DNA of 64,000 nucleotides from Candidatus Methylacidiphilales bacterium (GTDB lineage Bacteria > Verrucomicrobiota > Verrucomicrobiia > Methylacidiphilales > CAZTYG01): NCBI GenBank assembly GCA_033875315.1, contig JANRJG010000003.1, forward strand, positions 124,001 through 188,000. The letters are read 5' to 3'. Under the pieces are notes generated by a model. The model was not told the DNA's origin and made no database searches. It was given only the letters and a program-made list of their open reading frames with translations. Of this stretch, positions 19,396 to 52,394 are shown piece by piece (position 1 is the stretch's first letter; every line of letters starts with the position of its first letter). The position numbers and the translations under genes are program-made.

Positions 19396-21003
19396 TCAGT
19401 TTTTGGCTGTCCGGTGCTGCTGGATGGAGGCGAGCAACGCGGCCATGGCGGCCACACGCTCGGGATGGGCGGAGGACAGGTTCTTCCGCTGGCCGGCATC
19501 GGTGGAGAGGTCGAAGAGCTGGGGGACCGCGGAATGGCCGGACTCCATATTTTTATCTCCAAAGAGTTGTGGCCCTGGATAGGCGGGGATGAAGACCCAT
19601 GACCCTTGACGGAGCAGGGTTTTCGCGCCGAAGCCCTCGGTCACCAGGTTGTCACGACCTTTGCCGGCCCGCCCCAGGATGGCCTCGGCCATTTGCAGGC
19701 TGTCGGCGGACTCGGAGGAAGCCAGGTCCTGGCCGGCCAGATGGGCGAAGCTGGCGAGGAAATCCACCTGGCTGAGCAGGGCGTCTGAATCACCGGGCTG
19801 GACACGTCCGGGGGCCCAGACCAGGGCCGGCACGCGGGCCCCGCCATCGAAGAGACTGTATTTGCCACCTCGCAGCGGGCCGGCCGGACGGTGGTTGCCG
19901 GTTCGTTCCTCCGCCTGGTCCCGGTAACCATCATCCAGGATGGGCCCGTTGTCGCTCGAGAAAACCACAATCGTCTTCTGGTCCAGGCCCTCTTTCTTGA
20001 GGTGGTCCAATACCTCGCCCACCATCCAATCGAGCTCCATGATGACATCGCCACGGGGGCCTTTGTCGGAAGCTCCGGCGAAACGTTTTGAGGGGATTCT
20101 GGGCACATGCGGCTGGTGCAGGGCCATGTAGAGAAAGAATGGCGTGTCTTTCTTGCGCGTGATGAAGTTTTTCGTTTGCCCGAGAAAAACCCCCGCCATG
20201 GTGGTGTCGTCCCAGGTGGCCGACTTGCCGCCGCGACTGAACCCGATGCGGGGAATACCGTTGACAATAGTGTCGTGATGTTGCTCGTCGCTGTGGGACA
20301 TGGCGAGCAACTGGGGATGGGTCTGCGCGGTGGGGACTTCGGGGAATGGATTTTTCTTGGCGTAAACGACTTCGAGCGGGTCCTTGGGATCGAGGTTGAC
20401 CACGCGGTGGTCTTTGACGAAGACGCAGGGCACACGGTCGTTGGTGGCGGCCATGATGAAGGACTCATCGAAGCCCACATCGACCGGTGAGGGGCGGATT
20501 TCTTTGTTCCAATCCATGGGGCTCTTTCCGTCGCCAAGACCGATGTGCCATTTGCCGATGACCGAGGAAGCGTAGCCGGCTCGCTTCAGCACGGCAGGAA
20601 GGGTCAGTTCATCCCGGCCGATGATCATGGGCGCATCGCCGGCCAAGATCTTCGCGCGGGGATTGCGCCAGGGATAGCTGCCCGTGAGGAGGCTGTAGCG
20701 CGAAGGCGTGCAGGTCGCGGCAGTGGCGTAAAAATTGGTGAAGCGGAGGCCCTCCGAGGCCATGCGGTCGAGCCGTGGCGTGGGAATGCCCTTGGCCCCG
20801 TAACAACCCAAATCACCATAGCCGAGATCATCGGCGTAGATGATGATGAAATTGGGACGCGTGGAGGAGGATGCGCCCACTTTGGCGTCAGGAACAGGAT
20901 AGGCCGGAGACGGGAAAAAGACCCCAAGAAGGACAACCCATGTCATCAAAATCGGCGCTCGTGAAAGGGCTCCGGCGGATATGTTCGTTGTGTGCCCCAA
21001 CAT
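19396..21003 (-). CDS. Secreted sulfatase (type I, formylglycine-dependent)
   Basis: A 535-residue arylsulfatase-family enzyme. The sulfatase signature is 'CTPSRYSLLTG', where C98 would be converted to formylglycine; C-x-P-S-R is complete. Metal-site residues are seen in 'YADDLGYGDLG' at the N-terminus and 'SSDNGP' later, with 'GKWHIG' supplying the Lys-His pair. A hydrophobic leader near residues 20-40 ('LMTWVVLLGVFF') points to export. The start is uncertain: ATG 21003 or ATG 20946; a GTG at 21036 extends the frame. It would remove sulfate esters from a glycan. Divergent from the GH50-led gene run, it probably shares its regulatory region. Confidence 0.9.
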   Translation of the reverse strand: MLGHTTNISAGALSRAPILMTWVVLLGVFFPSPAYPVPDAKVGASSSTRPNFIIIYADDLGYGDLGCYGAKGIPTPRLDRMASEGLRFTNFYATAATCTPSRYSLLTGSYPWRNPRAKILAGDAPMIIGRDELTLPAVLKRAGYASSVIGKWHIGLGDGKSPMDWNKEIRPSPVDVGFDESFIMAATNDRVPCVFVKDHRVVNLDPKDPLEVVYAKKNPFPEVPTAQTHPQLLAMSHSDEQHHDTIVNGIPRIGFSRGGKSATWDDTTMAGVFLGQTKNFITRKKDTPFFLYMALHQPHVPRIPSKRFAGASDKGPRGDVIMELDWMVGEVLDHLKKEGLDQKTIVVFSSDNGPILDDGYRDQAEERTGNHRPAGPLRGGKYSLFDGGARVPALVWAPGRVQPGDSDALLSQVDFLASFAHLAGQDLASSESADSLQMAEAILGRAGKGRDNLVTEGFGAKTLLRQGSWVFIPAYPGPQLFGDKNMESGHSAVPQLFDLSTDAGQRKNLSSAHPERVAAMAALLASIQQHRTAKN

Positions 21004-21061
21004 GGGAAATGCGTAAGGAAAATTGTTCGAAAGCACGAAGCGTTTGGGTTAATGATAGCAA

Positions 21062-21116
21062 AACCAACAAACTCATTCTGTTTGACAATTGTCTGATACG
21101 CTGGTTGGTTTGTCAA
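21062..21116. promoter_or_regulatory. Candidate promoter/operator region, sulfatase-GH50 divergence
   Basis: The 137-bp gap contains TTGACAA at 21082-21088 and its inverse TTGTCAA at 21110-21116, a 10-bp perfect palindrome GACAATTGTC at 21084-21093, and AACCAAC/GTTGGTT at 21062/21104. TTGACA resembles a -35 box but no good -10 box was found at the right distance. The interleaved symmetry fits an operator for a dimeric repressor. No regulator gene is adjacent. Confidence 0.4.
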
Positions 21117-21140
21117 CTGTTTAATCCGCCCCCCTGCCTG

Positions 21141-24100
21141 ATGACCATTCCTCTACCCCGCCGGCGATCCGGCTTGTGCGCCCTCTTGCTGATCACCGCC
21201 ACTTGCGGTGCGCCCATGGGAAGGAATCTCCCGGCCCTAGAGGTCCTCCCGGGAGCGGCCCGGGCAAGCAGCCGGAACCCGACCCTGAGCGTCCGGGATC
21301 TCTTGGCTCCGGCCCGCACACTTTCCGATGTCACCCTCAAGGGCCCGGAACTGTTGCACTGGGCGCACTCGGGAAAGAAAGGTTTCCGTTTGTCCGGCGA
21401 ACTGGCCGACAAGCGGGCAACAGTCCAGTTGTTGCCAGCCTCGGGATTCTGGGATGTTTCCAAGTTCAGCTATGTTCGCATTGATTTCGTCAACAAAGGC
21501 CCGGGTTTGGTTTGGATCAATGGCCGCCTCGACAATGCAGACGCCATTGATTGGGCCAACAGCACACCTTCGCAGGCCTTCGTCATGCCCGGGGAGCGGG
21601 CGACCCTCGGCTTTCCCTTCCCGCGGGCGAAAGCTCTCAACGACGCGCCATCCATCTACGACCAGCAAAGCGGCAAACCCAACGGCCATCGGGAACACTG
21701 GAAAGCCTTCGACCCCTCCAAAATCATCGCCTGCCGCCTGGGCATCCAATCCACCTCTCCGACCCTGGTCCTGGAGGACGTCGTCATCAGTCTGGCCCAT
21801 CCCTATGGGGCGAAGGCCAACGCGGCATTGCTGGAACTTCCCTATCTTGATGCTTTCGGTCAAGTTAGGAAGCAGGAGTGGCCCGGCAAATTGCACCACG
21901 AGACAGAATTGAAGCAGCGGGAGGAGGCCGAGCGGGTCGCCGCCCAAAATGACCACGGTCCACTTTCGTTCAACAAATACGGGGGCTGGGCCGAGGGCCC
22001 GAAACGGCGCGCCTCCGGTTTCTTCCGGGTGGAAAAAGTCGACGGGAAATGGTGGATCATCGATCCGGAGGGCCGGCTTTTCTTCTCGCACGGGGCGAAC
22101 AGTGTCGGCTTTGATCAAACCACCCCGATTGCGGGACGCGAGTCCTTGTTCGCCTGGCTGCCCGATGCGGTGGATGCCCTCATGGCCGGGGTCATGCGGA
22201 AGGACCGGATGCATTTCATGGAGGCGAATCTCGCCCGTACTTTCGGTCCCGCATGGCCGGAACCCGCCCGCGACCGGGTCCACCGGCGGCTGCGCCAGTG
22301 GGGCATGAACACGATCGGCGCGTGGTCGGATAGCGGATTGATGGCGGAAAAACGCACCGCGTTCACACCGATTTTGCATGTGGGTCAGGAGGGGGCGCCC
22401 CTTGGCAACAAGATCTCGGACCCCTTTGCCAAGGACTTCAAGGCCCGCGTCGTGGAAGGATTGCGGCGGCTGATGCCGGACCCGGGAAATCCTTGGTGTC
22501 TGGGCGTCTTTATCGACAACGAGATCTACTGGACCGAACCCTTTGTGCAGAATGCCTTCCTCCGCGGCGAGAAGCAACCCGCCCGCAACGCTTGCATCGA
22601 TTGGCTGAAGAAAAAGCACGGGACGATTGAAAAACTCAACCTTGCCTGGGGAACCACTTATATGGCCTGGGAGCAGATCGGCCCCTTGCCTGATCCAATG
22701 ACCGAGTCATTGAAAGCGGATCTCTCGGAGATGAAACGCCTGATTTCCGGAACCTATTACCGGCTGTGCCGCGAAGCCATGCGGGAAGCGCTGCCAAACC
22801 ACCTTTACCTCGGTTCGCGCCAGCACAAGGGCGATCCAGAGGTCTACCAAGAATCGGCCAAGTATGTGGACATTCTCAGTCTCAACAACTACGCGGCGCT
22901 CTCCGGTTCCAAGGTCCCCCCCGGGGTCGATGTGCCCTGCCTCGACACCGAATTCCACTTTGGCGCCCCGGACCGCGGCGTGCCCGGCGTGGGATTGTGG
23001 CCGGTAGGCGACCAAATCCAGCGCAGCCGTTCCTACGTGGCCTATGTGCTGGCGGGAATCAAGCACCCCAACATGGTGGGCACCCATTGGTTCGCCTTTC
23101 CCGACCAATCGGCAGCCGGCCGGCCCGGCGAAAATTACCAGATCGGTTTTGTCGATGTGACGGACACGCCCTATCCCGAAATCACCCGGGCCTCGCGCGC
23201 CATGGCGGAGCGGATGTATGCGATCGGTGCCGACAAGTCTTCCAGTCTGTTGGAGTCCCTCGAAGCGCTCTGGCGGAACGAGGACGGGGCCGCCACGACC
23301 GGCAACCTGCCCTATCGCATCGAAAAGAACGAAAGCCTGGCGGTCACTCCGGGCAAGGGGGTTCAGGCGGTCACCGGCAAGGGGCCGTTCCAGATGGTGC
23401 TGACGCCCGCGGACACCGGTGTTTGGAATATGCAGTCGGTCCGGGTTTTGGGACTGATGGTGAAGAACACCGGGAGGACGGACCTGATCCTGGACGTCAT
23501 GGTGCGCAACGACGGCGCGACCACCTTCTCCCACTCCGCGCTCGGCCGCACCGTGGTCAAAGCCGGCGAGTCCCTGCCTTTGGGCGTGGCCTTGCAGCGA
23601 CTGGCCGACTACCGAAGCAAGCATCCGGCCTACCTGAGGATGTCCGGGCGGCCGAACGGCTTCTTCCGGCACTGGCACACGTTCGATCCGACAAGCGTGA
23701 AGGATCTGCTCATCACCTGCCCCAGCCCCGGAGAGCACGCGTTTGAGCTTGGCTCCCTTTTTCCGCTCCAGAAAACGGATGAGCGATTGAACGAACTCCT
23801 TCCGGTCGTGGACCGCTACGGCCAATACGTTCATGGCACATGGCCGGGCAAAGCGGCTTCTGACGCCGACATCAGTGCCAGAGCGAAGGAAGAAGAAGCC
23901 TTGGTGCGCGAACTGGGTCCGGCCCACGGCTTCAACAAATACGGAGGATGGGCCTCCGGTCCCCAGCTCAAAGCAACCGGTTTTTTCCGGACGGAAAAAA
24001 TGGACGGCAAATGGTGGTTTGTGGATCCGGAGGGAAAGTTGTTCTGGTCCTTCGGTGTCAACTGCGTCGGAGCAGATTTCGCCGGGCAGACACCCACTGA

Positions 24101-25256
24101 ACGCGACCCGGCGGTATTCCAAGATCTTCCTCCGGCCAGCGATCCGCGGTTCGGACGCTTCCACGTGAAACTAGAGGTCGAGGAAAACTTTCTCGCGAAA
24201 CCCGATGTCCCGCACTTCGACTTCACCCGGGCCAACCTCTTCCGTAAATATGGCAACAACTGGGCCGAAAAACAAATCGAGCAGGATATTCGTCGCCTGC
24301 AGTACACCCACCTCAACACCATCGGGGCCTGGTCGGACACCGCAATGACCGCACGCCGGAAGGTGCCCTACGTGGCCATGGTTCACTACGTCTATCCCGA
24401 AGCAGCGCCCAAGTTGCCTGATCCCTTCGATCCGAAGACGCGCCTCGGTTTGCGCAAGGCCCTGGCTGCCTATCCTGTCAAATTTGCCGACGACCCCTGG
24501 TGCCTGGGGGCCTTTGTCGACAACGAACTGCACTGGAAGAACGACGCGAGGCTCCTGATCGGTGCGATCTTTGGCCACACCAACACCGGTACGGAAGCAA
24601 GAAAGGTTTTCATCAATTGGCTGCGGAAGAAATACGGCGCGATCGAGGCCCTGAACAAGGGCTGGAAGATGAAGCTGTCCAAGTGGGATGATCTGCTGGA
24701 CACCACCGATCCCCTTCTTTTTTCCGGGGCGGATACCGGCGATTGCTCGGCGTTGGCCGCCCTTTTCTCCGATACCTTGTTCCGGTTGGTCCGGGAGGAA
24801 CTTTCCACTTATTCACCCAACGTGCTGTATCTTGGTTGCCGGATGAACGCCGGATCGCCCGAGGTCATCGCCGCACTGGCCCGGCACGCCGATGTCATCA
24901 GTGCCAACATCTATTCCTACCGGCCGGAACTCAAGCAATATGGCGCAACCGACAAACCCGTGTTGATTTCCGAGTTCCATTTCGTCAACGTTTCGGGGAA
25001 CAATCTGGGCGGCGGATTGCGCAGCGCGCAGGATGCGGTGCAGCAGGGACGGTTGCTGATGGTCTACATGGCCGAAGCGGTGCAGGATCCGAAACTTGTC
25101 GGGGCCCACTGGTTCCAGTGGCGCGATCAGAGCGCCGCCGGCCGCTACGACGGCGAGAATTTCAATGTAGGCCTGTACGATGTGATCGACGGCGCTAACG
25201 TGGATCTGGTCCGGGCCATGGCCTCATGCGGACGAAGCCTGTATCCTGGCAAATAG
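21141..25256 (+). CDS. Double-module GH50 glycoside hydrolase (beta-agarase-like)
   Basis: A 1371-residue secreted protein made of two GH50-type units. A signal peptide ('LCALLLITATCGA') precedes a CBM-like beta domain (about 80-250) and a TIM barrel (about 270-700). A second CBM-like domain (about 715-930) and barrel (about 935-1371) follow. Each barrel begins with the family pattern 'GFFRVEKVDGKWWIIDPEG' or '[19 protein letters not shown]'. The expected acid/base glutamates are E461 ('FIDNEIYW') and E1129 ('FVDNELHW'); the expected nucleophiles are E604 ('DTEFHFGAP') and E1278 ('ISEFHFVNV'). Both sets are intact. GH50 enzymes are exo- or endo-beta-agarases cleaving beta-1,4-galactosyl bonds. 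Whether the substrate here is agar is not proven. It heads the gene run and the start has the signal peptide directly after it. Confidence 0.82.
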   Translation: MTIPLPRRRSGLCALLLITATCGAPMGRNLPALEVLPGAARASSRNPTLSVRDLLAPARTLSDVTLKGPELLHWAHSGKKGFRLSGELADKRATVQLLPASGFWDVSKFSYVRIDFVNKGPGLVWINGRLDNADAIDWANSTPSQAFVMPGERATLGFPFPRAKALNDAPSIYDQQSGKPNGHREHWKAFDPSKIIACRLGIQSTSPTLVLEDVVISLAHPYGAKANAALLELPYLDAFGQVRKQEWPGKLHHETELKQREEAERVAAQNDHGPLSFNKYGGWAEGPKRRASGFFRVEKVDGKWWIIDPEGRLFFSHGANSVGFDQTTPIAGRESLFAWLPDAVDALMAGVMRKDRMHFMEANLARTFGPAWPEPARDRVHRRLRQWGMNTIGAWSDSGLMAEKRTAFTPILHVGQEGAPLGNKISDPFAKDFKARVVEGLRRLMPDPGNPWCLGVFIDNEIYWTEPFVQNAFLRGEKQPARNACIDWLKKKHGTIEKLNLAWGTTYMAWEQIGPLPDPMTESLKADLSEMKRLISGTYYRLCREAMREALPNHLYLGSRQHKGDPEVYQESAKYVDILSLNNYAALSGSKVPPGVDVPCLDTEFHFGAPDRGVPGVGLWPVGDQIQRSRSYVAYVLAGIKHPNMVGTHWFAFPDQSAAGRPGENYQIGFVDVTDTPYPEITRASRAMAERMYAIGADKSSSLLESLEALWRNEDGAATTGNLPYRIEKNESLAVTPGKGVQAVTGKGPFQMVLTPADTGVWNMQSVRVLGLMVKNTGRTDLILDVMVRNDGATTFSHSALGRTVVKAGESLPLGVALQRLADYRSKHPAYLRMSGRPNGFFRHWHTFDPTSVKDLLITCPSPGEHAFELGSLFPLQKTDERLNELLPVVDRYGQYVHGTWPGKAASDADISARAKEEEALVRELGPAHGFNKYGGWASGPQLKATGFFRTEKMDGKWWFVDPEGKLFWSFGVNCVGADFAGQTPTERDPAVFQDLPPASDPRFGRFHVKLEVEENFLAKPDVPHFDFTRANLFRKYGNNWAEKQIEQDIRRLQYTHLNTIGAWSDTAMTARRKVPYVAMVHYVYPEAAPKLPDPFDPKTRLGLRKALAAYPVKFADDPWCLGAFVDNELHWKNDARLLIGAIFGHTNTGTEARKVFINWLRKKYGAIEALNKGWKMKLSKWDDLLDTTDPLLFSGADTGDCSALAALFSDTLFRLVREELSTYSPNVLYLGCRMNAGSPEVIAALARHADVISANIYSYRPELKQYGATDKPVLISEFHFVNVSGNNLGGGLRSAQDAVQQGRLLMVYMAEAVQDPKLVGAHWFQWRDQSAAGRYDGENFNVGLYDVIDGANVDLVRAMASCGRSLYPGK

Positions 25257-25274: not shown

Positions 25275-26801
25275 ATGCAAAAAGAAACCACCCCCCAATA
25301 TCAAACGCTCTCCAAAAGCGGCAAGCTGAGCTTCCGCGAAAAATTCTCGGTGGGAACCGGCGGATTCACCGTATCGCTGGGAAACCAGAGCGTGCGGACA
25401 ACCGGCCAAGCGGTCTTGAACATCATCTTGGGCATCAACGCATTCTGGGTGGGCATCGTGCTCGCCGTCCCCATGTTTTTGGAAGCCGTCATTGACCCGA
25501 TCATGGGGAACATTACCGATAATTTTCGATCGAGGTATGGCCGTCGCCGGCCGTTTATTTTTGCAGGGGCGATCCTGATGGGACTGACCTTTGCCTCCAT
25601 CTGGATGATTCCACTGGAGTGGAGTGACACTGGAAAACTCGTCTGGTTCCTCGTCACCAGCCTCCTGTTCTACGTGACTTACACCATCTTTTCCGTGCCT
25701 TTCATCGCCCTGACCTATGAGATGACACCGGACTACGAAGAACGCACAAACGTCCAGGGTTATGTCACGTTTTGGAACCGCCTGGGAGAAATGACCTACA
25801 TGGGCCTTATTCCCCTTTCCGCGATGTTTATTGCCTGGAAATACGGCTATGCCGATTCCACCGACCTGACCAAGGCTGAAAAAATGGAAGGCATCCGCAT
25901 TTCCGCGGCCATCTATGGCGGCATCGGCATGACGCTCTTCGGCATGCTTCCCGCGTTCTTCGGAAGGGAACGCAATTATGAAATCAACATCAAGGAACAC
26001 CACGGAAAGAGGGACCCCTTCTGGCCCTCCGTCCGCCTGTGTCTTCATAACCGCGCTTTCACCATTCTTTGCACCATTGCCGTCTTCACCATCATTGCCG
26101 GCATGTTTGCCAGCAACATGGACTGGTATCTTCTGATCTATTATCTGTCGAACGGCGACGTGACGGTGGGAACCCAGTGGAAGCTGATTGTGACCGTGGG
26201 CTATGCATTGGTCGGCGTGCTCGGAATTCCTATGATCGTCTGGCTGACCGGGAAGATGACCAAGATCAGCGGCTTCATGTTCATCTATGGCATGATGATC
26301 CTCAACGCGGTCATCCGCTGGTTCGTTTACCATCCCGGACGCTTCGATACCGTGCTGGGTTGGTCGAGTTTAAAGGCCATCGGAGGCTCGCTCATGGCTA
26401 TTTTCCAATCGCTGATTTGGCTGGACCCCCTGACCGGCGGGTTGTTCTGGATCGGCGTGGGTGTGCTCGGCCAATCGCTGATTGCCGATGTTTGCGACGA
26501 TGACGAGATCAAGAATGGCCGCCGGCGGGAAGGCCTGTTTGGCGCCATTTACGGCTGGTCCATGAAGGCTTCTTTTGCCATCAGCTTTGTCATGATCGGT
26601 GTGTTTCTCAATGCCATCGGCTTCGACCCAGGGGCGGAATCGCAGAGCCCGCAGACCTATTTCAACATGCGTCTGGCCATGTGCCTGGGTGCGGCCTGCC
26701 CGGCCGTTTTGTGCTTCGTTCTCCTCAAATACTATCCACTGACCAAGGAAACCGCGGAGAAAAACCGCAGGGAACTTGAGCGCTTGCGGACGGGAAGCTG
26801 A
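25275..26801 (+). CDS. GPH-family (MelB-like) sugar:cation symporter
   Basis: A 508-residue, about 12-TM transporter of the glycoside-pentoside-hexuronide:cation symporter family in the inner membrane. The hallmark 'DPIMGNITDNFRSRYGRRRPF' in the loop after helix 2 holds the Asp residues that in MelB bind Na+ and sugar; a second Arg/Gly motif, 'KNGRRREGLFGAIYG', marks the C-terminal half. It lies 18 bp after the GH50 gene and before cytoplasmic GH43 and GH112 genes, so it is the likely importer of the oligosaccharides released outside. An AGGAAA site precedes the ATG. No SusC/SusD pair accompanies it. Confidence 0.9.
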   Translation: MQKETTPQYQTLSKSGKLSFREKFSVGTGGFTVSLGNQSVRTTGQAVLNIILGINAFWVGIVLAVPMFLEAVIDPIMGNITDNFRSRYGRRRPFIFAGAILMGLTFASIWMIPLEWSDTGKLVWFLVTSLLFYVTYTIFSVPFIALTYEMTPDYEERTNVQGYVTFWNRLGEMTYMGLIPLSAMFIAWKYGYADSTDLTKAEKMEGIRISAAIYGGIGMTLFGMLPAFFGRERNYEINIKEHHGKRDPFWPSVRLCLHNRAFTILCTIAVFTIIAGMFASNMDWYLLIYYLSNGDVTVGTQWKLIVTVGYALVGVLGIPMIVWLTGKMTKISGFMFIYGMMILNAVIRWFVYHPGRFDTVLGWSSLKAIGGSLMAIFQSLIWLDPLTGGLFWIGVGVLGQSLIADVCDDDEIKNGRRREGLFGAIYGWSMKASFAISFVMIGVFLNAIGFDPGAESQSPQTYFNMRLAMCLGAACPAVLCFVLLKYYPLTKETAEKNRRELERLRTGS

Positions 26802-26859
26802 GGTTTCATTCCACGGAAGTTCCCCACTATCATTCAAGAAAACGAAATCAGAAAAGAAC

Positions 26860-27954
26860 ATGAACCATTCACGCACTCAGTTTGAACCCGGAAAAATATG
26901 GTGCGACACCCACGGTGTTCCCATCAATGCCCACGGGGGCGGGTTGCTTTTCCACCAAGGCCTCTACTACTGGTTCGGTGAACATAAGATCGAGGGGGAT
27001 GCGGGCAACCGGGCCATGGTGGGCGTGCACGCCTACTCCTCGGCCGACCTCTACAACTGGAATGACGAAGGCATCGTCCTCCCGGTCAGCACCGAGCCGG
27101 GCCATGACATCGAAGTCGGTTGTATTCTTGAGCGCCCCAAGGTGATCTTCAACGCCGCCACCGGGAAGTTCGTCATGTGGTTTCATCTGGAGAAGAAAGG
27201 TTGCGGCTATGACACCGCCAGCAGCGGGGTTGCGGTGGCCGACCGGCCCACCGGACCGTTCACCTACCTGCGCGCCTTTCGTCCCAATGCAGGAGTGTAT
27301 CCGCGGAATGATGGACCCAGTCTCCACTCGCCGAGTTTGGTCGGCGGCATTTTCACCGGTGACCATCCACTGCCACGCCTGAACGTCGTCCAAAGCAACA
27401 TCTTCGCCCGCGACCTGGCACAGGGCCAGATGGCGCGCGACATGACCCTTTTTGTGGACGACGACGGCAAGGCTTATCACATTTACTCGTCCGAGGAAAA
27501 CAGCACCCTTCATCTATCGGAACTGGATGCGACTTACCAGGCCCCGGCCGGCAACTTCGTCCGCCTCTTCGAGGGACGCTATATGGAAGCCGCGGCGGTC
27601 TTCAAACGCGACGGATTTTACTACCTGATCGCCAGCGGTTGCACCGGTTGGGATCCCAACGCCGCGCGTTGCGCCATCGCTCAGAACATCATGGGACCCT
27701 GGCACGAGATGGACAATCCTTGCCTGGGGGTGAACCCGCAGAATGGTTTCGGCCCAGAGAAAACCTTCGGAGCGCAGAGCACCTACGTGCAGAAGGTGCA
27801 CGGCCGCACCGATGCGTTCATCGCCCTGTTTGACATCTGGACCCCTGCCAACGCCATCGACGGTCGCTATGTGTGGCTTCCGGTTTCGTGGAAAGAAGAC
27901 CGCGGCTTCTCGATCCAATGGCGCGACGCGTGGGATCTTTCCGTTTTTGAATAA
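26860..27954 (+). CDS. Cytoplasmic GH43-type enzyme (exo-beta-1,3-galactanase-like)
   Basis: A 364-residue five-bladed propeller without a signal peptide. The opening 'WCDTHGVPINAHGGGLLFHQ' and 'YYWFGEHK' match the exo-beta-1,3-galactanase branch of GH43 (subfamily 24), as I recall it. Blade motifs continue with 'ERPKVIFN', 'ARDMTLFVDDDGKAY' and 'GRYMEAAAVFKRDGFYY'. In this subfamily the usual GH43 catalytic base can be missing, so the acid and base cannot be named with confidence here. In the cytosol it would trim galactose from imported oligosaccharides. The start at 26860 is preferred because upstream frame sequence is unlike the family. Confidence 0.75.
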   Translation: MNHSRTQFEPGKIWCDTHGVPINAHGGGLLFHQGLYYWFGEHKIEGDAGNRAMVGVHAYSSADLYNWNDEGIVLPVSTEPGHDIEVGCILERPKVIFNAATGKFVMWFHLEKKGCGYDTASSGVAVADRPTGPFTYLRAFRPNAGVYPRNDGPSLHSPSLVGGIFTGDHPLPRLNVVQSNIFARDLAQGQMARDMTLFVDDDGKAYHIYSSEENSTLHLSELDATYQAPAGNFVRLFEGRYMEAAAVFKRDGFYYLIASGCTGWDPNAARCAIAQNIMGPWHEMDNPCLGVNPQNGFGPEKTFGAQSTYVQKVHGRTDAFIALFDIWTPANAIDGRYVWLPVSWKEDRGFSIQWRDAWDLSVFE

Positions 27955-27982: not shown

Positions 27983-30181
27983 ATGGCCGACAAAAAAAAC
28001 GAACGCAAAGGCGGCTTCACTCTGCCTGCGCAGGCCGGCATGGACGAAGTGGTGTTGGACCTGGCCAGGCGATGGGGAGCCGATGCCATCCGCGATTCGG
28101 ATGGAACCGTCCTTTCGGACTCGATCACCAACCTCGGGTATGAAATCTATTCAACTCTGTGCCTGATCCGGGCCGACCAGACTTGGAACAACGCACACCC
28201 AGAGGACCACCAACAGAAATATCTTTTTTCCACGCCGCAGGTGGCTCGCGACACCACCATCCAGATCGACATCCTCGCCCGGTATTCCCCGCAACAATAC
28301 CGGATCGATGAAATCAATGACTGCAAAAAGTATTGGGAGGTGATCAACCGGACCACCGGCCAAGTCATTCCGGTCTCCAATTGGGAATATGCCAATGGCA
28401 TCGTCACCGTTCGCCACTGCGCCAAGTGGAATGTTTACAGCGTCAACTTCCTCGTCTTCCAGATCTGGGAAACGACCTCGATGTACAACCACCTCACCAA
28501 CAACTGGGGTGACAAACCGCACCAATCCGGGGTGGACCCCCGCAAGAAGGCGACGCGCGAGCACCTCGCCCGATTTCTTGATAAATGGCTCGAAACCCAC
28601 CCCGGCACGGACTACGTGCGGTTCACCTCGATGGCCTACCAGTTCCCCATCATCACCAATCCCTCGCATGAGACGCTCTATCAGGATTGGTATGGCTACC
28701 TTGATTGCATGAGCGCCCAAGCGCTGGATGAATTCGAGGCGAAGAAGGGCTACCGTCTGCGTCCGAACGACATTGTCGACAACGGGTACTTTTGCTCCAC
28801 CGACCGCGTGCCGAGCAGAGCTTATCTCGATTGGATCGAGTTCATCCACGAGTTCATGGTCGATTGGTCGAGGCAGTGCGTCCAACAGGTCCACAAGGCC
28901 GGTAAAAAGGCGGTGTTGTTCTACTGTGACCACTGGATCGGCACGGAACCCTACAAGCCGAAATTCCAGCAGATCGGCTTTGATGGCATCATCGGCCCCT
29001 GCATCAACGGCCGCGAAGTCCGCCGCATCGCCGATGTGCCGGGCGAGTTGGTCAAGGAGTTGCGCCTCTATCCCTATTTCTTTGCGGTCGACCTGCTCAA
29101 CCGCCCAACTTTCCAAGAAGGCGGCAACCCGGTGGCGGATTGCAAGAAATACTGGATGTGGATCCGCCGGGCCATGCTGCGCAAACTGGTCCATCGCATC
29201 GGCTATGGCGGTTATCTGGACTTGGCGGTCAAATTCCCGGACTTCATCGACTACATCGAATACCAGACCAAGGAGTTTTACGGGATCTGCGAGCACTCCG
29301 ATTTCACCCCGGTGGAGAACGCCCCGTTCAAGGTGGCGATCCTAAATGCCTGGGGACGGGATCGTTCCTGGGGTTACGACCAATCCTGGCCGGAGGGCGC
29401 GATCACGGAGTCGCTCTCGGGACAGCCTTTTGACCTAGTGTGGATCAACTTTGACGACATACGCAATGGCATTCCCGCGGATGTTGGCGTGATCATCAAC
29501 CTCGGCCACGCGGGCACCTCATGGAGCGGGGGCGAGAATTGGAAGGACCCGCGCGTGGTCGCGGAAATACGCGCGTTTGTCGACCAAGGCGGCGGCTTCT
29601 TGGGAGTCCTTGATCCTACGGCGGCGGATAACGGCGGTGCTTTTTACCAGTTGTGGGATGTCCTCGGCGTGCAGAAAGAATACGGCCTCTCCAACGACAC
29701 AAAAAAAGTGATCTCCACGGAGGAGAGGAAAGGGCATTTCATCTTGGCCGATTCCAACAGCGCCGCACCGGACCTGGGCAAGCATGTGCAGCGGATTTAT
29801 CCCAGCGTGGAGACGGCATCCATTGTGGCCAAAGATCACGAGGGCAGCATCACCATTGCAGCTAACAATTACGGGAAGGGTCGCGGAGTGTACCTGGCCG
29901 GATTCAAGCTCGGTGCGGAACAAAGCCGCCTTCTGCAGCGTGCGATCTGGTTCGCCTCAGGCCGGGAGGACCAGATGACCCGGCGCTGGTTCTCCACCAA
30001 CCCGCACACCGAAATCGCCGCCTACCCACAGACCCGGAAATACATCGTCATCAACAATGCCAACGATCCACAAACCACGGAGATCACCGACGGGGAAGGC
30101 CGGAAGCACACCGTTCAACTCGCGGCCAACGCTTCCCAATGGTTTGATTTCTCCGGGAACGCGATTCAACCGACAACTTAA
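27983..30181 (+). CDS. GH112 beta-galactosyl phosphorylase (lacto-N-biose/galacto-N-biose type)
   Basis: A 732-residue cytoplasmic protein of family GH112, the usual length. Diagnostic segments are the N-terminal 'FTLPAQAGMDEVVLDLARRW' and 'GADAIRDSDGTVLSD', the barrel segment 'VDWSRQCVQQVHKAGKKAV', and a GATase1-like domain around 'GGGFLGVLDPTAADNGG'. GH112 enzymes phosphorolyse Gal-beta-1,3-GlcNAc/GalNAc or Gal-beta-1,4-L-rhamnose to alpha-galactose 1-phosphate and the free acceptor sugar. The sequence alone does not tell me which. It sits 28 bp after the GH43 gene and 6 bp before galT, so the product can flow directly into the Leloir pathway. No N-acetylhexosamine kinase or rhamnose genes are nearby. 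Confidence 0.88.
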   Translation: MADKKNERKGGFTLPAQAGMDEVVLDLARRWGADAIRDSDGTVLSDSITNLGYEIYSTLCLIRADQTWNNAHPEDHQQKYLFSTPQVARDTTIQIDILARYSPQQYRIDEINDCKKYWEVINRTTGQVIPVSNWEYANGIVTVRHCAKWNVYSVNFLVFQIWETTSMYNHLTNNWGDKPHQSGVDPRKKATREHLARFLDKWLETHPGTDYVRFTSMAYQFPIITNPSHETLYQDWYGYLDCMSAQALDEFEAKKGYRLRPNDIVDNGYFCSTDRVPSRAYLDWIEFIHEFMVDWSRQCVQQVHKAGKKAVLFYCDHWIGTEPYKPKFQQIGFDGIIGPCINGREVRRIADVPGELVKELRLYPYFFAVDLLNRPTFQEGGNPVADCKKYWMWIRRAMLRKLVHRIGYGGYLDLAVKFPDFIDYIEYQTKEFYGICEHSDFTPVENAPFKVAILNAWGRDRSWGYDQSWPEGAITESLSGQPFDLVWINFDDIRNGIPADVGVIINLGHAGTSWSGGENWKDPRVVAEIRAFVDQGGGFLGVLDPTAADNGGAFYQLWDVLGVQKEYGLSNDTKKVISTEERKGHFILADSNSAAPDLGKHVQRIYPSVETASIVAKDHEGSITIAANNYGKGRGVYLAGFKLGAEQSRLLQRAIWFASGREDQMTRRWFSTNPHTEIAAYPQTRKYIVINNANDPQTTEITDGEGRKHTVQLAANASQWFDFSGNAIQPTT

Positions 30182-31234
<1,053 letters not shown>

Positions 31235-31252: not shown

Positions 31253-32230
31253 ATGAAAGTATTGGTCACAGGCGGGGCGGGATATGTCGGCAGCACGGCC
31301 ACGGCGGAACTCATCCAAGCCGGTCACGATGTCGTGGTGTTCGACAACTTGAGCCAGGGCCACCGGTCGTCGGTCCATCCGAAGGCGGCGTTCGTGCATG
31401 GCGATCTGGCCAACATCGGCGCCGTGGAACAGGTCTTCGCGGAACACCGCCCGGAGGCGGTGATGCACTTTGCCGCCCGCAGTCTGGTGGGCGAATCCAT
31501 GCACAAGCCATTCCTGTATCTCGGCGAGAACATCACCAACGCGCTCAACCTCCTGCAAGTGACGGCTGACCGGGGGGTGAAGCGTTTCATCTTCTCCTCC
31601 ACGGCCAATCTGTTCGACAACCCGGCCAAAATCCCGATCGATGAATCGGCCCAGATCATTCCGGGAAGCCCCTACGGGGAATCCAAATTCATCATCGAGC
31701 GCATGCTCTACTGGCTGGAGAAGACCCACGACCTCCATTACGCGTGCCTGCGCTATTTCAATGCCGCCGGTGGCACACCCGAACGCGGCGAGGATCACGA
31801 CCCCGAAACGCACTTGATACCCATCATCCTCCAGGTCGCGCTCGGACAGCGCACACATGTCACGGTCTTCGGCAACGATTACGCCACGCCCGATGGAACC
31901 TGTGTGCGCGATTACGTCCATGTGGCGGACCTCGCACAGGCCCATATCCTTGCGCTGGAGGCACTGGATTCGGGCAGCCGGATTTACAACCTGGGCAATG
32001 GTTTGGGATTCTCGGTCAAGGCCGTCATTGATGCCGCGCGAGCCATCACTGGACACCCGATTCCCGTGCAAATGGGCCAGCGTCGCCCGGGAGATGTGGC
32101 GACTTTGGTTGCCGGCAGCGACAAAATCCGGCGCGAGCTGGGCTGGACACCGCGCTATGCCGATTTGAACACGATTGTCCGGAGCGCCTGGGACTGGCAC
32201 CGCACTCATCCCCATGGTTATGAGGATTGA
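31253..32230 (+). CDS. galE: UDP-glucose 4-epimerase
   Basis: A 325-residue short-chain dehydrogenase that interconverts UDP-galactose and UDP-glucose, regenerating the co-substrate of GalT. The NAD site is 'TGGAGYVGS', the catalytic pair is Y141 and K145 in 'SPYGESK', and '[20 protein letters not shown]' and '[14 protein letters not shown]' are GalE-type. An unusual feature is 'SSTANLF' where most GalE have 'SSSATVYG'. The ATG follows a GAGGAAT site. Its last 11 bp overlap the next gene. Confidence 0.92.
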
Positions 32231-34340
32231 CCCCGTGCGACAAGGGTCGCTTCTTGGCAGGAGAAGCCGCCCCTGGCTGGCCGCTCTCCTTTTCGCGCTG
32301 CCGGGTGTGGGGACTGTTCTTGCCGTGGAGCCAGGGGTTAAGACCGATGTCCGAGTGTCCGGCGACGCCACCCGGACGGGGGATTCCGCAGGATGGACGT
32401 CCCTCCGCCTTGACAAGCCCTCGGGCCTAGCCCAGGTGGCTTTTTTTTACCAGAAGGGACCGGGCGCACTGAATCTGTCTGCCTTCCGCGATGTGGCGGT
32501 GCAGGTGAAAAATGACGCCGACGCGGAAGTGGACGTGCTGGTCAACGCCACGAGCAATCCGGATGCCGCCTGGCTGGAAAGCACCAGTGGACGCTTTTTG
32601 GTTCATCCGGGCGAGACGGGCAACCTCACCACCCTGATGACACGGGCAGCTCTGCCGGGGGAACATCCCTTTGTGAAGCAGTTGGGGAACCTGTACGCCT
32701 TTCCCTGGGGGCACCAGGGTCATTGGCGCCACATGGATACTTCTGCCATTGTCCGGGTGACCCTGCGACTCAAGTGGAGCCTGGCCAGCGTCGGCCGCAC
32801 GCTGCAGATCGGCCACCCGGGTGGACATGGATTCTACAGTACGGATTCCGCATTGCTCCAGACTCTGGAACTGCCTTTGGTCGACCCGTTCGGCCAGCTC
32901 CGTGAGGGTGATTGGCCTGATAAACTAAAGGATCGCGCCGAATTCCATAAGGATGGGAAAAAGGATTTGGAACTGATCTCGAAAGTGACCCGGGTGGACG
33001 GGGGACGGAGCCGGTTCGGCGGAATGGCCGACGGACCCAAGTTGAAGGCTACGGGTTTTTTCCGCGTGGAGAAGCTCAACGGCAAGTGGTGGTTCGTGGA
33101 TCCGGAGGGGAATCTCTTTTGGTCGCACGGCGTCAACTGTGTCGGTGGCTCGGATGCCACCAAAGTGGCGGGCAGGGAGAGCCTTTTTTCGGAGGGAGAC
33201 CGCAGCCAGCCCTCGATGAATTTTTATGCGAAGAATCTTAAGCTGAAGTTTGGCGAAGAACACTGGAAGGAGCGGCTGGCGGAACTTTCACTGGCACGCA
33301 TGTTCGACTGGGGCTTGAACACGGTGGGGGCTTGGTCGATGTCTGAACTCTCGGATAGCCAGCGGATTCCGTACACCCTCATCGTCCATGCGTATCTGCA
33401 GCAGTTGGGCAATACCCGGAAGATTGCCGACCCCTTCTCGGACGGGTTCCAAAACTCTTTGGACAAGAGCCTACAGGGGCTGGCGGCCAAGCATGCAAAA
33501 AGCCCCTGGCTTCTGGGAGTGTATATCGAGAATGAACTCGATTGGAAATACGGCCATGAGCTCGTCAACGACATCATCGGCAGCTACGAGTCGGCCCCGG
33601 CACGGGTTGCGCTGGTGAAGTTTTTGCAGGAACGCCATGGCGGCATCGCCGGACTGAACCAGGCCTGGGATACCCAGTTCAAGAGCTTTAAGGAACTCCA
33701 ACCCGCGCCCGGTCCTATGGGCAAGAAAACCTGCTCCAAGGACCTCGATGATTTTATGGACTTATTTGCCGACCGCTACTTTGCGGTCAGCAGGGCGGCG
33801 ATGCGGAAACACCTCCCCAACCATTTATTCTTGGGCAGCCGTTTCCATATCTTCAACCCCCACGTAACAGCGGCGGCCTCGCGGCACTGCGATGTGATCA
33901 GCGTGAACATCTACCAACACAGCTTCCATGAATTCAATATGGAAACCAGCCAGGACCGGCCGTGGATCATCAGTGAATTTCACTTCGGCACACCGGATCA
34001 CGGAGTGTGGGGGGTGGGGCTGACTTGGGCGGCCGATGCGAGGAACCAGGCCGATCTGTATCAGGCATACGTCTCAGATGCCCTGCGCCATCCGAACTTT
34101 GTGGGCACCCATTGGTTTGCCTGGACGAGCCAGCCCGTGACTGGAAGGGGCGACGGAGAGAATTTTGGCATGGGCATGGTCAGCTTGGTGGACCGACCTT
34201 TGGAAAAGTTGGTCCGGGCGGTGCAAAAAGTTTCGCGTGAACTCTACACCTACCGTCTGAACGGCCTGGAGAGCCGGATCGGAGAGGTCCGGGAAAAACC
34301 GGCGGCCGCCGGTCAAGTTTCACCAGTTACATCCCCCTGA
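32220..34340 (+). CDS. Secreted GH50 glycoside hydrolase (beta-agarase-like)
   Basis: A 706-residue single-unit GH50 protein: an Arg-rich signal peptide ('[17 protein letters not shown]'), a CBM-like domain (about 45-235) and a TIM barrel (about 255-690). The barrel starts '[19 protein letters not shown]'. The expected catalytic residues are E439 ('[11 protein letters not shown]') as acid/base and E586 ('[12 protein letters not shown]') as nucleophile. It is clearly related to both units of the 1371-residue protein upstream. The ATG overlaps galE by 11 bp (32214 is an in-frame alternative), so it belongs to the same transcript. It would cut beta-galactan outside the cytoplasm. Confidence 0.82.
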
Positions 34341-34342
34341 TC

Positions 34343-35956
34343 ATGAATAAGCCTATCCACCCACACATGTCTTCGGCAAGTTTGATCCGACTTCACCCAA
34401 AAAAGGTTTGGCTCGTTTGGTCTCTGGCCGTCCTGACTTTCCCCTTGCAGGCATTGGAACTGCCAAAGGTTTTTTCCGACCGCATGGTTTTGCAGCAGGG
34501 TCAGCCACTGCCGGTTTGGGGGCGGGCCGAGGCCGGGGCCACCGTCACGGTCAAATTCGGGCAGCAATCCGTGAATGCCGTGGCCGAGGCCGGGGGGAAT
34601 TGGATGGCCACTCTGGCCCCCGAGACGGCCAGCGCCACACCCGCCACCCTGACGGTCCGCAGTGGGGACAAGGAACTCTCTTTCGATGATGTCCTCGTTG
34701 GCGAAGTCTGGCTCTGCTCTGGCCAGTCCAACATGGAATGGTCAGTAAATGGCGCGCTGAATGGGGATATCATTCCGTTGAGCGGAGGGAATCCACAGCT
34801 GCGCTTCTATCATGTTGAACGGCACGTTTCCGTCGCACCCCGTTTCTCCGCCAACGCCACATGGACCGCAGCCCAATCGGATACCATTCCCTCCTTCAGT
34901 GCAGTGGCATACCACTTCGGGTCGACGCTTCAGCCCGCCGTTGGAGTTCCGGTCGGTTTGATCGCCGCGTCGTGGGGAGGAACACCGGCTATTTCATGGA
35001 CCCGGCCATCCGCCTTCGACAAGCACCCACTGTTGGCGGAACAAGCTGCCGAGTGGGAGGCTGGAATAAAAACCTATCCAGAGCGCAAAACACAGTTTGA
35101 GGCCAAAATGGCCGATTGGAAAAAGGCCAAGGGGCTCCCGCCGGATGCAAGAGTAACCAACGATCGCTATCCCGATGCGCCCTGGCCCCCTGCACATGAT
35201 CCCGAAAGCTCCAAACGGCCCGGTGTTTTGGCCAACGGCATGTTGGCTTCAGTGGCTCCTTTTGCCATCCGCGGCGCCATCTGGTACCAGGGAGAAGCTG
35301 ACGCAGGTTGGGAACCGGATCGGTATGATGAACGCCTTGCCGTGATGGTGAACGACTGGCGTGTCTGGTGGAATAATCCCCAACTCGCGTTCGGAGTCGT
35401 GCAATTGGCCGGATTCAAAGCACCGTCGGAGACACCCACGGACGACCCCTGGTCCAGGCTCCGCGAGAGCCAGCGCCGCTTTGTCCGCAAGGATTCCCAT
35501 GCCGGGCTGGCAGTGGCCATAGATATTGGGGAAGCCAATGATATTCACCCATTTGACAAACAGACGGTTGGGCAAAGGCTGGCCCGCTGGGCGTTGGCGG
35601 ATGTTTACCAGAAGATCAAGCTCCGGGGGGGACCGGAGCCGGTTGACGTCACTTTTGATGACTTCGTGCGTATCCGCTTTGAATCAGTGGGGGGGGGGCT
35701 TTGGATTTTGAATGGAGGGGATCTGCAAGGCTTCACACTTGCTGGCGCGGATGGTGTTTTTCATGTGGCCAGAGCAGAAATCAAGGGGAAGGATACCGTG
35801 GAGGTTAGAAGCCCTTCTGTTCCCGTTCCACAAACCGTCCGTTATGCCTGGGCCGCCAATCCACGCGGAGCCAACCTCAGCAACAAGCAACGCTTGCCCG
35901 CCGGTCCCTTTGAGCTCAAACAAACAAATGCCACCCCCATTCCTGCAAGGGAGTAA
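34343..35956 (+). CDS. Sialate O-acetylesterase-type esterase, copy 1
   Basis: A 537-residue secreted SGNH hydrolase of the SASA/sialate O-acetylesterase type. After the leader ('WLVWSLAVLTFPLQA') the protein begins 'LELPKVFSDRMVLQQGQPLP', the standard opening. The catalytic Ser is S129 in 'LCSGQSNMEW' and the terminal motif 'ANDIHPFDKQ' gives the Asp-x-x-His pair. In polysaccharide loci such enzymes usually remove acetyl groups from glycans, not necessarily from sialic acid. It starts 2 bp after the GH50 stop. Its 3' part shares a nearly identical DNA stretch with the next gene. Confidence 0.88.
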   Translation: MNKPIHPHMSSASLIRLHPKKVWLVWSLAVLTFPLQALELPKVFSDRMVLQQGQPLPVWGRAEAGATVTVKFGQQSVNAVAEAGGNWMATLAPETASATPATLTVRSGDKELSFDDVLVGEVWLCSGQSNMEWSVNGALNGDIIPLSGGNPQLRFYHVERHVSVAPRFSANATWTAAQSDTIPSFSAVAYHFGSTLQPAVGVPVGLIAASWGGTPAISWTRPSAFDKHPLLAEQAAEWEAGIKTYPERKTQFEAKMADWKKAKGLPPDARVTNDRYPDAPWPPAHDPESSKRPGVLANGMLASVAPFAIRGAIWYQGEADAGWEPDRYDERLAVMVNDWRVWWNNPQLAFGVVQLAGFKAPSETPTDDPWSRLRESQRRFVRKDSHAGLAVAIDIGEANDIHPFDKQTVGQRLARWALADVYQKIKLRGGPEPVDVTFDDFVRIRFESVGGGLWILNGGDLQGFTLAGADGVFHVARAEIKGKDTVEVRSPSVPVPQTVRYAWAANPRGANLSNKQRLPAGPFELKQTNATPIPARE

Positions 35957-35960
35957 TTCT

Positions 35961-37583
35961 ATGACTTTTTTCAAACGCCGATTCGGAAAACAACATGCTC
36001 CCGAAGCTGTTCGTTCTTCTTTTTTGTTGCCGAGGATTTTTTTCATTGCCTTGACCACCTGGGCTCTCCCATTGCGGGCGCTGGAGGTGCCGACGATATT
36101 TTCGGATCATATGGTTTTGCAGCAGGGGCAGCCCTTGCCGGTCTGGGGTCGGGCCGAGGCCGGAGCCAGGATTTCTGTCGTCTTTGGAAAACAATCACTG
36201 GAGACAGTAGCGGATGGTCAGGGGAAATGGCTGGTCACACTGGCACCCGAGACAGCCAGTGCGATACCAGCAACCCTGCAAGTTCGATGCGGCGACAAGG
36301 AGGTCATCCTCAAGGATATTTTGGTTGGGGAGGTCTGGCTGTGCTCTGGACAATCAAATATGCAACATACGGTCGGAGAAGCCCTCAACGCCGATATCAC
36401 TCCGATCGTAGCACAAAATCCGTTGATACGTTTGTATCAAGTCGATCGGGTTGCCTCAACGACACCCCGTTTTTCCGCGAACACGACGTGGACCCCCACC
36501 GAATATAAGACCGTATCGAGCTTTAGTGCCGCCGGCATACACTTTGCCTCGGTTGTGCAGCCGACTCTGGGTGTGCCCGTCGGCCTGATTGGGGCTTCCT
36601 GGGGGGCCACTCCTGCGATAGCATGGACCCGGCCCTCGGTGCTCGATAAGCATCCGCTCTTTCTGGAGAATTTGGCCGAATGGGAAAAGGGCATGAAAGC
36701 ATTTCCTGAGCGCTATGCGGCCTATCTGGTGAAATGTGCCGAATGGAACAAGTCCAAGGGTCTGCCCGAGGATGCCCCAGTGAACCACTGGAGCACACCG
36801 GGAGCTCCCAAGCCGCCTCCTTACGATCCCAATGGATCGAATCGAGCAGGAAACCTCGCCAACGGAATGCTCTCGACCGTCGCTCCTTTTGCCATGCGCG
36901 GGGTCATTTGGTATCAGGGTGAAAACGACACCAATTGGGTCCCGGAAAAATACCACGAGCGTCTTGCCCTGATGGTCAACGATTGGCGGGTTTGGTGGAA
37001 CAATCCAGAACTTGCCTTTGGGGTGGTGCAGTTGGCCGCATGGAAACAGCCGGGTGAAAACAGTGATGGAGACTGGCCTCGTTTGCGCGAAAGTCAGCGT
37101 CAATTCGTTCTTGCTGATCCGCACGCGGGATTGGCTGTAGCCATTGATGTAGGTGAGGCCAACAACATCCACCCGTTTGACAAACAGACTGTTGGGCAAA
37201 GGCTGGCCCGCTGGGCGTTGGCGGATGTTTACCGGAAGATCAAGCTCCGGGGGGGGCCGGAGCCGGTCGAGGCCACATTTGAAAAGTCAGTGATCATTCG
37301 TTTTGAGTCTGTGGGCGGCGGTCTCTGGGTTTTTAATGGCGGGGAACTGACGGGATTCACTGTGGCTGGCTCGGACGGGGTCTTCCATGAGGCCAAGGCT
37401 GAAATCAAAGGCCAGAACACCGTCGAGGTCAGCAGCCCCGATGTGCCTTCACCAGTCACCGTCCGCTATGCATGGGCGCACAATCCCCGCGGCGCCAACC
37501 TCAGCAACAAACAACGCCTTCCGGCCGGACCCTTTGAGATGAGCAGGCCACCAACCCCCAATCATACCAACTCAATACCATGA
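35961..37583 (+). CDS. Sialate O-acetylesterase-type esterase, copy 2
   Basis: A 540-residue paralogue of the previous gene, 4 bp downstream. A Lys/Arg-rich start and hydrophobic stretch ('IFFIALTTWALPLRA') form the signal peptide. The catalytic Ser is S132 in 'LCSGQSNMQH', and 'ANNIHPFDKQ' supplies the Asp and His. The protein likely deacetylates the same polysaccharide at another position. A GGGAG site precedes the ATG at 35961, which fixes the start against a longer open frame from 35712. Its stop overlaps the next start by 4 bp. Confidence 0.88.
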   Translation: MTFFKRRFGKQHAPEAVRSSFLLPRIFFIALTTWALPLRALEVPTIFSDHMVLQQGQPLPVWGRAEAGARISVVFGKQSLETVADGQGKWLVTLAPETASAIPATLQVRCGDKEVILKDILVGEVWLCSGQSNMQHTVGEALNADITPIVAQNPLIRLYQVDRVASTTPRFSANTTWTPTEYKTVSSFSAAGIHFASVVQPTLGVPVGLIGASWGATPAIAWTRPSVLDKHPLFLENLAEWEKGMKAFPERYAAYLVKCAEWNKSKGLPEDAPVNHWSTPGAPKPPPYDPNGSNRAGNLANGMLSTVAPFAMRGVIWYQGENDTNWVPEKYHERLALMVNDWRVWWNNPELAFGVVQLAAWKQPGENSDGDWPRLRESQRQFVLADPHAGLAVAIDVGEANNIHPFDKQTVGQRLARWALADVYRKIKLRGGPEPVEATFEKSVIIRFESVGGGLWVFNGGELTGFTVAGSDGVFHEAKAEIKGQNTVEVSSPDVPSPVTVRYAWAHNPRGANLSNKQRLPAGPFEMSRPPTPNHTNSIP

Positions 37584-38953: not shown

Positions 38954-39020
38954 GTCTTGCCCTGATCTTTCCATCCGATCCGATCATCCCAACCCAGCAT
39001 CCCATGCATCCCCGCTACTT

Positions 39021-40784: not shown

Positions 40785-40961
40785 TATAAGCTGGCACATT
40801 AAGGAGAGCTATATGCCGGTCCTTTGGGTATCACCAGCCCCGCTTTCTGAGCTCAGAAAGGTGCATCCAGACACTCTACGCCCTTGACGTCAACGAGAGC
40901 AGACAATAATCTGACAAAAAGAACGTTATTACTATCTACGATATTTAAGAACACCTCCAAA

Positions 40962-43357: not shown

Positions 43358-43507
43358 ATAAGCCCAAGTGAATTGTGTGGGCGACAAAGGGTCTCATGGG
43401 AGGGCGAAGCTCCTGCTGAGCCGCCCTTGCGGGACAGATCTCAAACCGGCTTGGCAGGAGCCTCGCCCTCCCGCCCATCGTGTCACTCAGTCAATTGAAT
43501 TTGGTAT
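43358..43507. repeat. R1 MITE-like element, copy 2 (150 bp)
   Basis: Left end is degenerate ('CCAAGTGAATTGTGTGGGCG'), right end is 'CAATTGAATTTGGTAT'. Inner inverted arms are 'GGGAGGGCGAAGCTCCTG' and 'CAGGAGCCTCGCCCTCCC'. Its last bases overlap the first possible ATG of the GH31 gene. Confidence 0.8.
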
Positions 43508-52260: not shown

Positions 52261-52394
52261 CTGGCTCAATTATTGCAAGCAAAGTTACTTAAGCAAACAA
52301 ATTTCAGACACGGAAAACTGCCCTCCATCGTGCGCAATTCCCATCCTGCCCCCCCTTGTTTGAAATTTCATCTGAATCATCCAATCGGGTTGAA

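Follow-up and report, generated by a model that had tools for sequence, protein, structure and literature searches.

Which acceptor is used by the glycoside hydrolase family 112 (GH112) phosphorylase that is encoded among polysaccharide-degrading genes of a Candidatus Methylacidiphilales bacterium? The gene lies in a stretch of 64,000 nucleotides that was analysed as a whole (the window; contig JANRJG010000003.1). In the available parts of PMC8950772 and PMC4336185, only HexNAc and L-rhamnose are given as acceptor classes of the family. The original prediction was that the substrate may be new, and galactose, rhamnose, or an acidic sugar were proposed as acceptors. The gene itself was confirmed at 27983..30181 on the plus strand as a complete open reading frame of 732 residues without an internal stop. 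All three Pfam domains were found in the protein (PF09508, PF17385, and PF17386 with E 7e-164, 1e-62, and 2e-20), and the cut-off of the NCBIfam equivalog TIGR02336 was passed (794 versus 560 bits). An AlphaFold model, with 25 window and locus sequences as input, reached a pLDDT of 90.7 and matched the chains of PDB 2zus at TM ~0.9, and both the three-domain architecture (by Pfam) and the fold (by the 2zus match) of GH112 are thus present. The intact reading frame and the confident model rule out an artefact or a pseudogene.

By sequence, the only solved relatives are chains of the Bifidobacterium longum galacto-N-biose/lacto-N-biose (GNB/LNB) phosphorylase. Identity to 14 other GH112 sequences, which include this enzyme (BlGLNBP, 2zus) and the presumed galactosyl-rhamnose phosphorylase (GalRhaP) of Opitutus terrae, was 41–44%. 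The genome (3.15 Mb, 95.65% complete) contains the window gene as its single GH112 copy. A search of a plasmid collection gave one match, from Subdoligranulum (37%). Two distant GH112-like proteins in one other genome (L017 and L020 of G083; 22–25% identity to the window protein) have open frames of 1191 and 830 amino acids and score above the PF09508 cut-off.

The surroundings of the gene are those of a probable galactan locus. A divergent sulfatase gene (19396..21036, minus strand; PF00884, E 1e-53) lies upstream of the cluster, and all genes from there to the GH29 gene mentioned below are on the plus strand. They begin with a protein of 1461 amino acids with two GH50 (agarase-type) domains (20871..25256), which matched PDB agarases in two separate stretches (E 4e-71). 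The same fused double-GH50 chain is represented by a 59% identical protein of 1366 amino acids at 2268-6365 of L022, a locus from a relative labelled Kiritimatiellae. A GPH-type sugar symporter follows (25275..26801; PF13347, E 3e-62; TIGR00792 at 157 bits, under its cut-off). As had been predicted, a beta-1,3-galactanase-like GH43 gene then precedes GH112 (26776..27954); its best PDB match was 6eug (E 3e-112), and it also matched 7bys and 5flw, which are named galactan 1,3-beta-galactosidase and exo-beta-1,3-galactanase. We take its subfamily to be GH43_24. Its likely start, as read by eye, is at 26860 (MNHSRT), and by the same reading a signal peptide was seen neither at this start nor at that of GH112.

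Downstream, galT (galactose-1-phosphate uridylyltransferase, 30188..31234; Pfam and TIGR00209 above cut-off) begins 6 bases past GH112 and is followed by galE (UDP-glucose 4-epimerase, 31253..32230; TIGR01179 at 403 bits, cut-off 262). As these two genes come directly after GH112, the phosphorylase gene is linked with the galactose 1-phosphate arm of the established LNB pathway, and only the acceptor arm is missing. This linkage only suggests that the window enzyme releases alpha-galactose 1-phosphate in a phosphate-dependent manner. Next come a single GH50 agarase-type protein (32175..34340; PDB 6xj9, E 8e-73), in which the glutamates aligned with agarase NE and EFH are retained, and two SASA-type carbohydrate esterases (34343..37583, reading frames 34343-35956 and 35712-37583; PF03629). 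Judged by eye, a signal peptide seems to be present on the single GH50 protein and on the first of the esterases. Two GH158-like proteins (37580..40394, reading frames 37580-38953 and 38799-40394; PDB 9oro, E 2e-28 and 5e-30) and a GH29-type alpha-L-fucosidase-like protein (45656..47584; PF01120, E 3e-71) complete this part of the locus. The prediction that the companions are galactan enzymes held, but it had omitted galT and galE, the three GH50 domains, and the sulfatase.

Several further features were observed in the cluster. The adjacent GH158-like pair has no Pfam match and was recognised only through PDB 9oro and 6pal, and a protein of 795 amino acids (40884-43271, plus strand) is without a Pfam, NCBIfam, or PDB sequence match. 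In a GH31 gene (43368-45740, plus strand), an in-frame TAA at 44106-44108 separates the N-terminal part from the catalytic barrel; both parts lie in the same frame as successive reading frames, and the stop could be a nonsense mutation, an assembly error, or a boundary between two genes. On the minus strand, a protein of 1454 amino acids (47905-52269) combines a glycosyl hydrolase catalytic core with ricin-type lectin, F5/8, and Ig domains. The polysaccharide cluster runs on beyond the window (L152) with GH50, GH43_24, two GH29, GH16, GH116, and sulfatase genes.

Among the genes for the handling of the known acceptors, a NahK-type kinase and RhaA were sought in the whole genome. With an APH-family protein encoded near GLNB-group GH112 genes as NahK-type query (L099, 14279-15385), no match was obtained anywhere in the window genome, whereas Gemmiger, the positive control, gave two; the predicted lack of a HexNAc kinase nearby therefore extends to the entire genome. 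Rhamnose genes were likewise said to be missing nearby, and no match to RhaA, RhaB, RhaD, or RhaM was found within 10 kb of GH112. This part stood with the qualification that an L-rhamnose isomerase (RhaA) is encoded on a separate contig (C13), where no rhamnose gene was found among the four neighbours scanned. The galactokinase of the genome is on contig C11. Whole-genome searches of the window genome and two near kin (G000, G386, and G387) revealed no GH53.

Relatives were collected by a contig scan with a six-sequence alignment, of which the best 80 of 579 confirmed matches were used, together with loci from whole-genome searches. A FastTree phylogeny of 121 rows and a mixture-model maximum-likelihood tree of 55 rows, hand-picked from these 121, agree. 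Two characterised enzymes anchor them, BlGLNBP (2zus) and L003, the sole GH112 of a genome that we take to be O. terrae PB90-1 and therefore presumably Oter_1377. Oter_1377 is listed as GalRhaP in the part of PMC8950772 that is available. The window protein forms a triplet (100/100) with L021 (85% identical) and L022 (80%), both from metagenome-assembled genomes (MAGs) of one sampling series (CSSed). This series presumably comes from soda-lake sediment. Sisters of the triplet are five proteins of 48–52% identity (two from Phycisphaerales, two from KSB1, and one from a Spirochaetes MAG), and together they make up a clade of eight rows (100/98 in the 55-row tree, 99 in FastTree) that contains neither of the two anchored enzymes. 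L003 belongs to a distinct clade of 20 rows (100/100) and 2zus to a distinct group of 17 rows (100/99). The eight-row clade falls on the GalRhaP side of the tree (99/98), and the stem of the window subclade is long (0.88 in the 55-row tree).

In approximately unbiased (AU) tests, with groups picked after the tree had been viewed, forcing the triplet together with seven Opitutaceae GalRhaP rows was worse by 228 log units (p-AU 3e-33), and forcing it together with the 17 GLNBP-group rows was worse by 56 log units (p-AU 0.007). Membership in the clade of either anchored enzyme is ruled out by the tree topology and these tests. A Sumerlaeota GH112 (L028, 9974-12172), which adjoins GH35, was placed near the eight-row clade with an unsure position.

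Residues were compared over the 121 rows in 2zus numbering. R32, N166, R210, D313, R358, Y362, and F364 are present in every row (121/121), including the window protein; we take D313 to be the catalytic acid and assume functional roles for the other six as well. The window protein carries the two residues that mark its clade, C312 and P336. Cysteine at position 312 occurs in all nine rows of the clade and L028, whereas two sets of GalRhaP-side rows have D (42/42) or N (8/8) and the 62 others all have G; P336 is found in 8/8 clade rows and in none of the remaining 113, so that L028 has C312 and the insert described below and is without P336. At position 217, Q is present in 8/8 clade rows and N in 50/50 GalRhaP-side rows, and Q also occurs in 13 of 16 GLNB rows. 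At position 162 the clade has T and all 50 GalRhaP-side rows have I, but T also occurs in 25/25 clostridial rows, from which this position does not set the clade apart. Position 360 is Y in the clade and in other uncharacterised groups, H in all 50 GalRhaP-side rows, and L in all 16 GLNB rows. Where the 50-row GalRhaP-side clade shares I162, N217, H360, and D or N at 312, the window protein thus has T, Q, Y, and C. A six-residue insert after position 366 is common to the GalRhaP side (59/59 rows, with the eight-row clade and L028 counted) and occurs in 0 of 62 rows elsewhere.

In TIM barrels, the active site lies at the ends of the barrel strands. In the secondary structure of the model (window numbering), strand 309-313 precedes C315-D316 and strand 335-340 ends in P339-C340, which would place the clade-diagnostic residues at or just past barrel-strand ends, on the active-site side. 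Positions 312, 336, 217, 162, and 360 may touch the acceptor. The suggestion of a new substrate is partly supported, insofar as the window protein stands outside the clades of both anchored enzymes and shares the diagnostic residues of neither; the clustering with a characterised clade that would have spoken against it was not found.

Gene contexts were counted with seed-built profiles over reading frames within 10 kb of GH112 at 80 named loci and the window, some of them on contigs shorter than this. GH53 (endo-beta-1,4-galactanase) was found near GH112 at 5/5 sister loci and at 0/76 of the other loci listed (Fisher p 4e-8, with relatedness ignored), among them the three of the window subclade (0/3). 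GH42 was near GH112 at all five sister loci, at L022, and at one further locus listed. The GPH symporter was present at 4/5 sister loci, 2/3 of the window subclade, and 5 elsewhere among the 81 loci listed, and sulfatases at 3/3, 0/5, and 4 loci of the window subclade, the sisters, and elsewhere, respectively. GH50 was found in the window and at L022 and at none of the five sister loci, and GH29 genes lie in the window and just past it. GH105 accompanies GH112 at 9 of 23 loci in two GalRhaP-side groups outside Opitutaceae, and NahK at 6/15 GLNB-group loci and 1/6 of a neighbouring clostridial group. RhaA was near GH112 at only 1 of the 81 loci listed, so that a missing rhamnose gene nearby is a weak argument on its own.

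Whole-genome searches of the five sister genomes placed 13 of 14 GH53 matches on the GH112 contig. A separate search found the C312/P336 motif with a GH42-GH53-GPH cassette in a genome of Phycisphaerae (G794), which is closely related to two of the known sisters. Seven GH112 loci of a later round (L172, L173, and L175–L179) had other motifs and no GH53 adjoining GH112; the comparison of contexts does not include the eighth (L174). At L177, a protein of 1302 amino acids aligned over about 100 residues with a GH53 query that has a secretion tail, and this was not counted as GH53.

One of the KSB1 genomes (G389) has two GH112 genes. The copy on contig C24 belongs to the eight-row clade and lies among three GH53 genes, GH42, GPH, and galT, whereas that on contig C150 shows the motif of the rhamnose side. 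Also on C150 are genes for a GH106 alpha-L-rhamnosidase, a GH105-like protein, and, at a distance of about 23 kb, RhaA; NahK is encoded on a third contig of this genome. Such contrasting contexts suggest that the substrates of the two copies differ and that the eight-row clade is not simply GalRhaP. In genome G386, the gene of the 80% identical relative stands in the order sulfatase-GH112-GH42-GPH-GH50x2 beside sulfatase-galT-galE-galK (L142, the contig of L022), by which all Leloir genes are found together. The place of GH42 there is occupied by GH43_24 in the window.

From phylogeny, residues, and context, the window enzyme is most likely a phosphorylase of beta-galactobiose (or galacto-oligosaccharides) whose acceptor is D-galactose or an oligosaccharide ending in galactose, a reading that we hold with confidence a little short of even. 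The distinct clade, C312 and P336, the sister loci with GH53 and GH42, the pair of copies in G389, and the G386 cluster all point in this direction. Secreted GH50 enzymes, esterases, and sulfatases would shorten and strip the galactan, and the GPH symporter would take up its small products. In the cytosol, the inverting GH112 enzyme would split the terminal beta-galactosyl bond with phosphate to give alpha-galactose 1-phosphate and the acceptor. Galactose 1-phosphate would then enter glycolysis by way of GalT and GalE, which are encoded directly downstream, and the acceptor, if D-galactose, would pass to galactokinase. That the enzyme runs towards phosphorolysis in vivo and that D-galactose is its acceptor are both inferred, and the link is expected to be beta-1,4 in the GH53-linked sisters and either beta-1,3 or beta-1,4 in the window. 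Transfer to the 3-OH of D-sugars is reported for GalRhaP as well, with D-galactose as a lesser acceptor (PMC4336185, in its available part); D-galactose is thus within reach as an acceptor, and beta-1,3 and beta-1,4 links are equally possible.

Some observations speak against a galactobiose phosphorylase. No galactokinase match was found in the two Phycisphaerales sister genomes, both MAGs, which fits poorly with a release of free galactose. Gal-beta-1,4-Rha stubs can likewise arise at GH53 loci, where hydrolysis of galactobiose by GH42 could make GH112 unnecessary. TIGR02336 is named for a HexNAc enzyme, and the association of the sisters with GH53 may reflect one inherited cassette. As GH53 is lacking in the window genome and two near kin, the acceptor may moreover have changed in the long-stemmed subclade, and an L-galactose-type acceptor is possible there.

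The alternative that survives best, although we regard it as unlikely, is an agar- or porphyran-type phosphorylase, by which the enzymes of the window, L021, and L022 would split Gal-beta-1,4-L-galactose or Gal-beta-1,4-3,6-anhydro-L-galactose produced by GH50 and sulfatase action. It would account for the sulfatases at all three subclade loci and for the GH50 domains at two of them (the window and L022), neither of which is found at the five sister loci, for the GH29 genes nearby, and for the long stem; a beta-1,4 bond to an L-sugar would also be shared with GalRhaP, as the six-residue insert is. GH43_24 and GH42, however, point to plain beta-galactosyl links, and action of the GH50 proteins on agar is predicted from their family.

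After this comes the doubtful case of a diverged galactosyl-rhamnose phosphorylase that would cleave Gal-beta-1,4-L-Rha from pectin or another rhamnose-containing glycan. The common side of the tree, the insert, and RhaA elsewhere in the genome are consistent with it, and the absence of RhaA nearby says little, as the GalRhaP side is rarely linked to this gene. Yet all five GalRhaP-side positions compared (162, 217, 312, 336, and 360) differ in the window protein, the AU test speaks against joining the Opitutaceae GalRhaP rows, RhaA was not found in G386, G390, G596, and G598, and G389 has kept a separate rhamnose-side copy. Less probable again is a clade with two specificities, one for beta-1,4-galactobiose in the GH53-linked sisters and, in the window's soda-lake subclade, one for Gal-beta-1,4-(anhydro-)L-galactose derived from an agar-like galactan that is sulfated. 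An ordinary LNB/GNB phosphorylase with its acceptor handled by some other kinase is improbable, for TIGR02336, the galT and galE linkage known from the bifidobacterial pathway (PMC8106489, in its available part), and GH29 and sulfatases that could also suit a host-type glycan are set against a genome with no NahK homologue, the missing GLNB-group residues S336, L360, and G312, and the AU test. Among the acceptors originally proposed, galactose is therefore favoured by the sister loci and rhamnose is less likely, whereas no evidence in favour of an acidic sugar emerged.

In relation to known systems, the window enzyme shares family, fold, invariant residues, and insert with D-galactosyl-beta-1,4-L-rhamnose phosphorylase (Oter_1377 and Cphy_1920) but belongs to its own clade, has C312, P336, Q217, T162, and Y360 where GalRhaP has D, C, N, I, and H, and has galactan-type instead of rhamnose-type neighbours. 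With BlGLNBP it has the family, fold, invariant residues, and galT and galE linkage in common, but it is 41% identical, carries the insert, and lacks G312, S336, and L360 as well as a NahK in its genome. GH94 and GH130 differ from GH112 in family and fold. The proposed logic, an intracellular split by phosphate, would nevertheless be common to cellobiose, mannobiose, and other disaccharide phosphorylases of these families (PMC4336185, in its available part). In the part of PMC8406133 that is available, Bacteroides plebeius uses sulfated arabinogalactan with GH43_24 and a sulfatase, which makes this polysaccharide another possible candidate for the window locus. The phrase "galactobiose phosphorylase" was not found in the literature searched, a search that subscription papers mostly fall outside.

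The window enzyme is thus a member of a clade for which no characterised enzyme was found; its acceptor is probably D-galactose. The analysis suggests that the name of TIGR02336 over-assigns HexNAc specificity. Should two specificities exist in the clade, they would provide an ATP-saving phosphorolytic route through galactans. If the galactobiose phosphorylase is real, it would represent a third acceptor class of GH112 and a tool for the synthesis of galacto-oligosaccharides. Phosphorolysis would then serve some bacteria in the breakdown of galactan, as it serves others with cellulose and mannan, and would spare one ATP for each galactose 1-phosphate.
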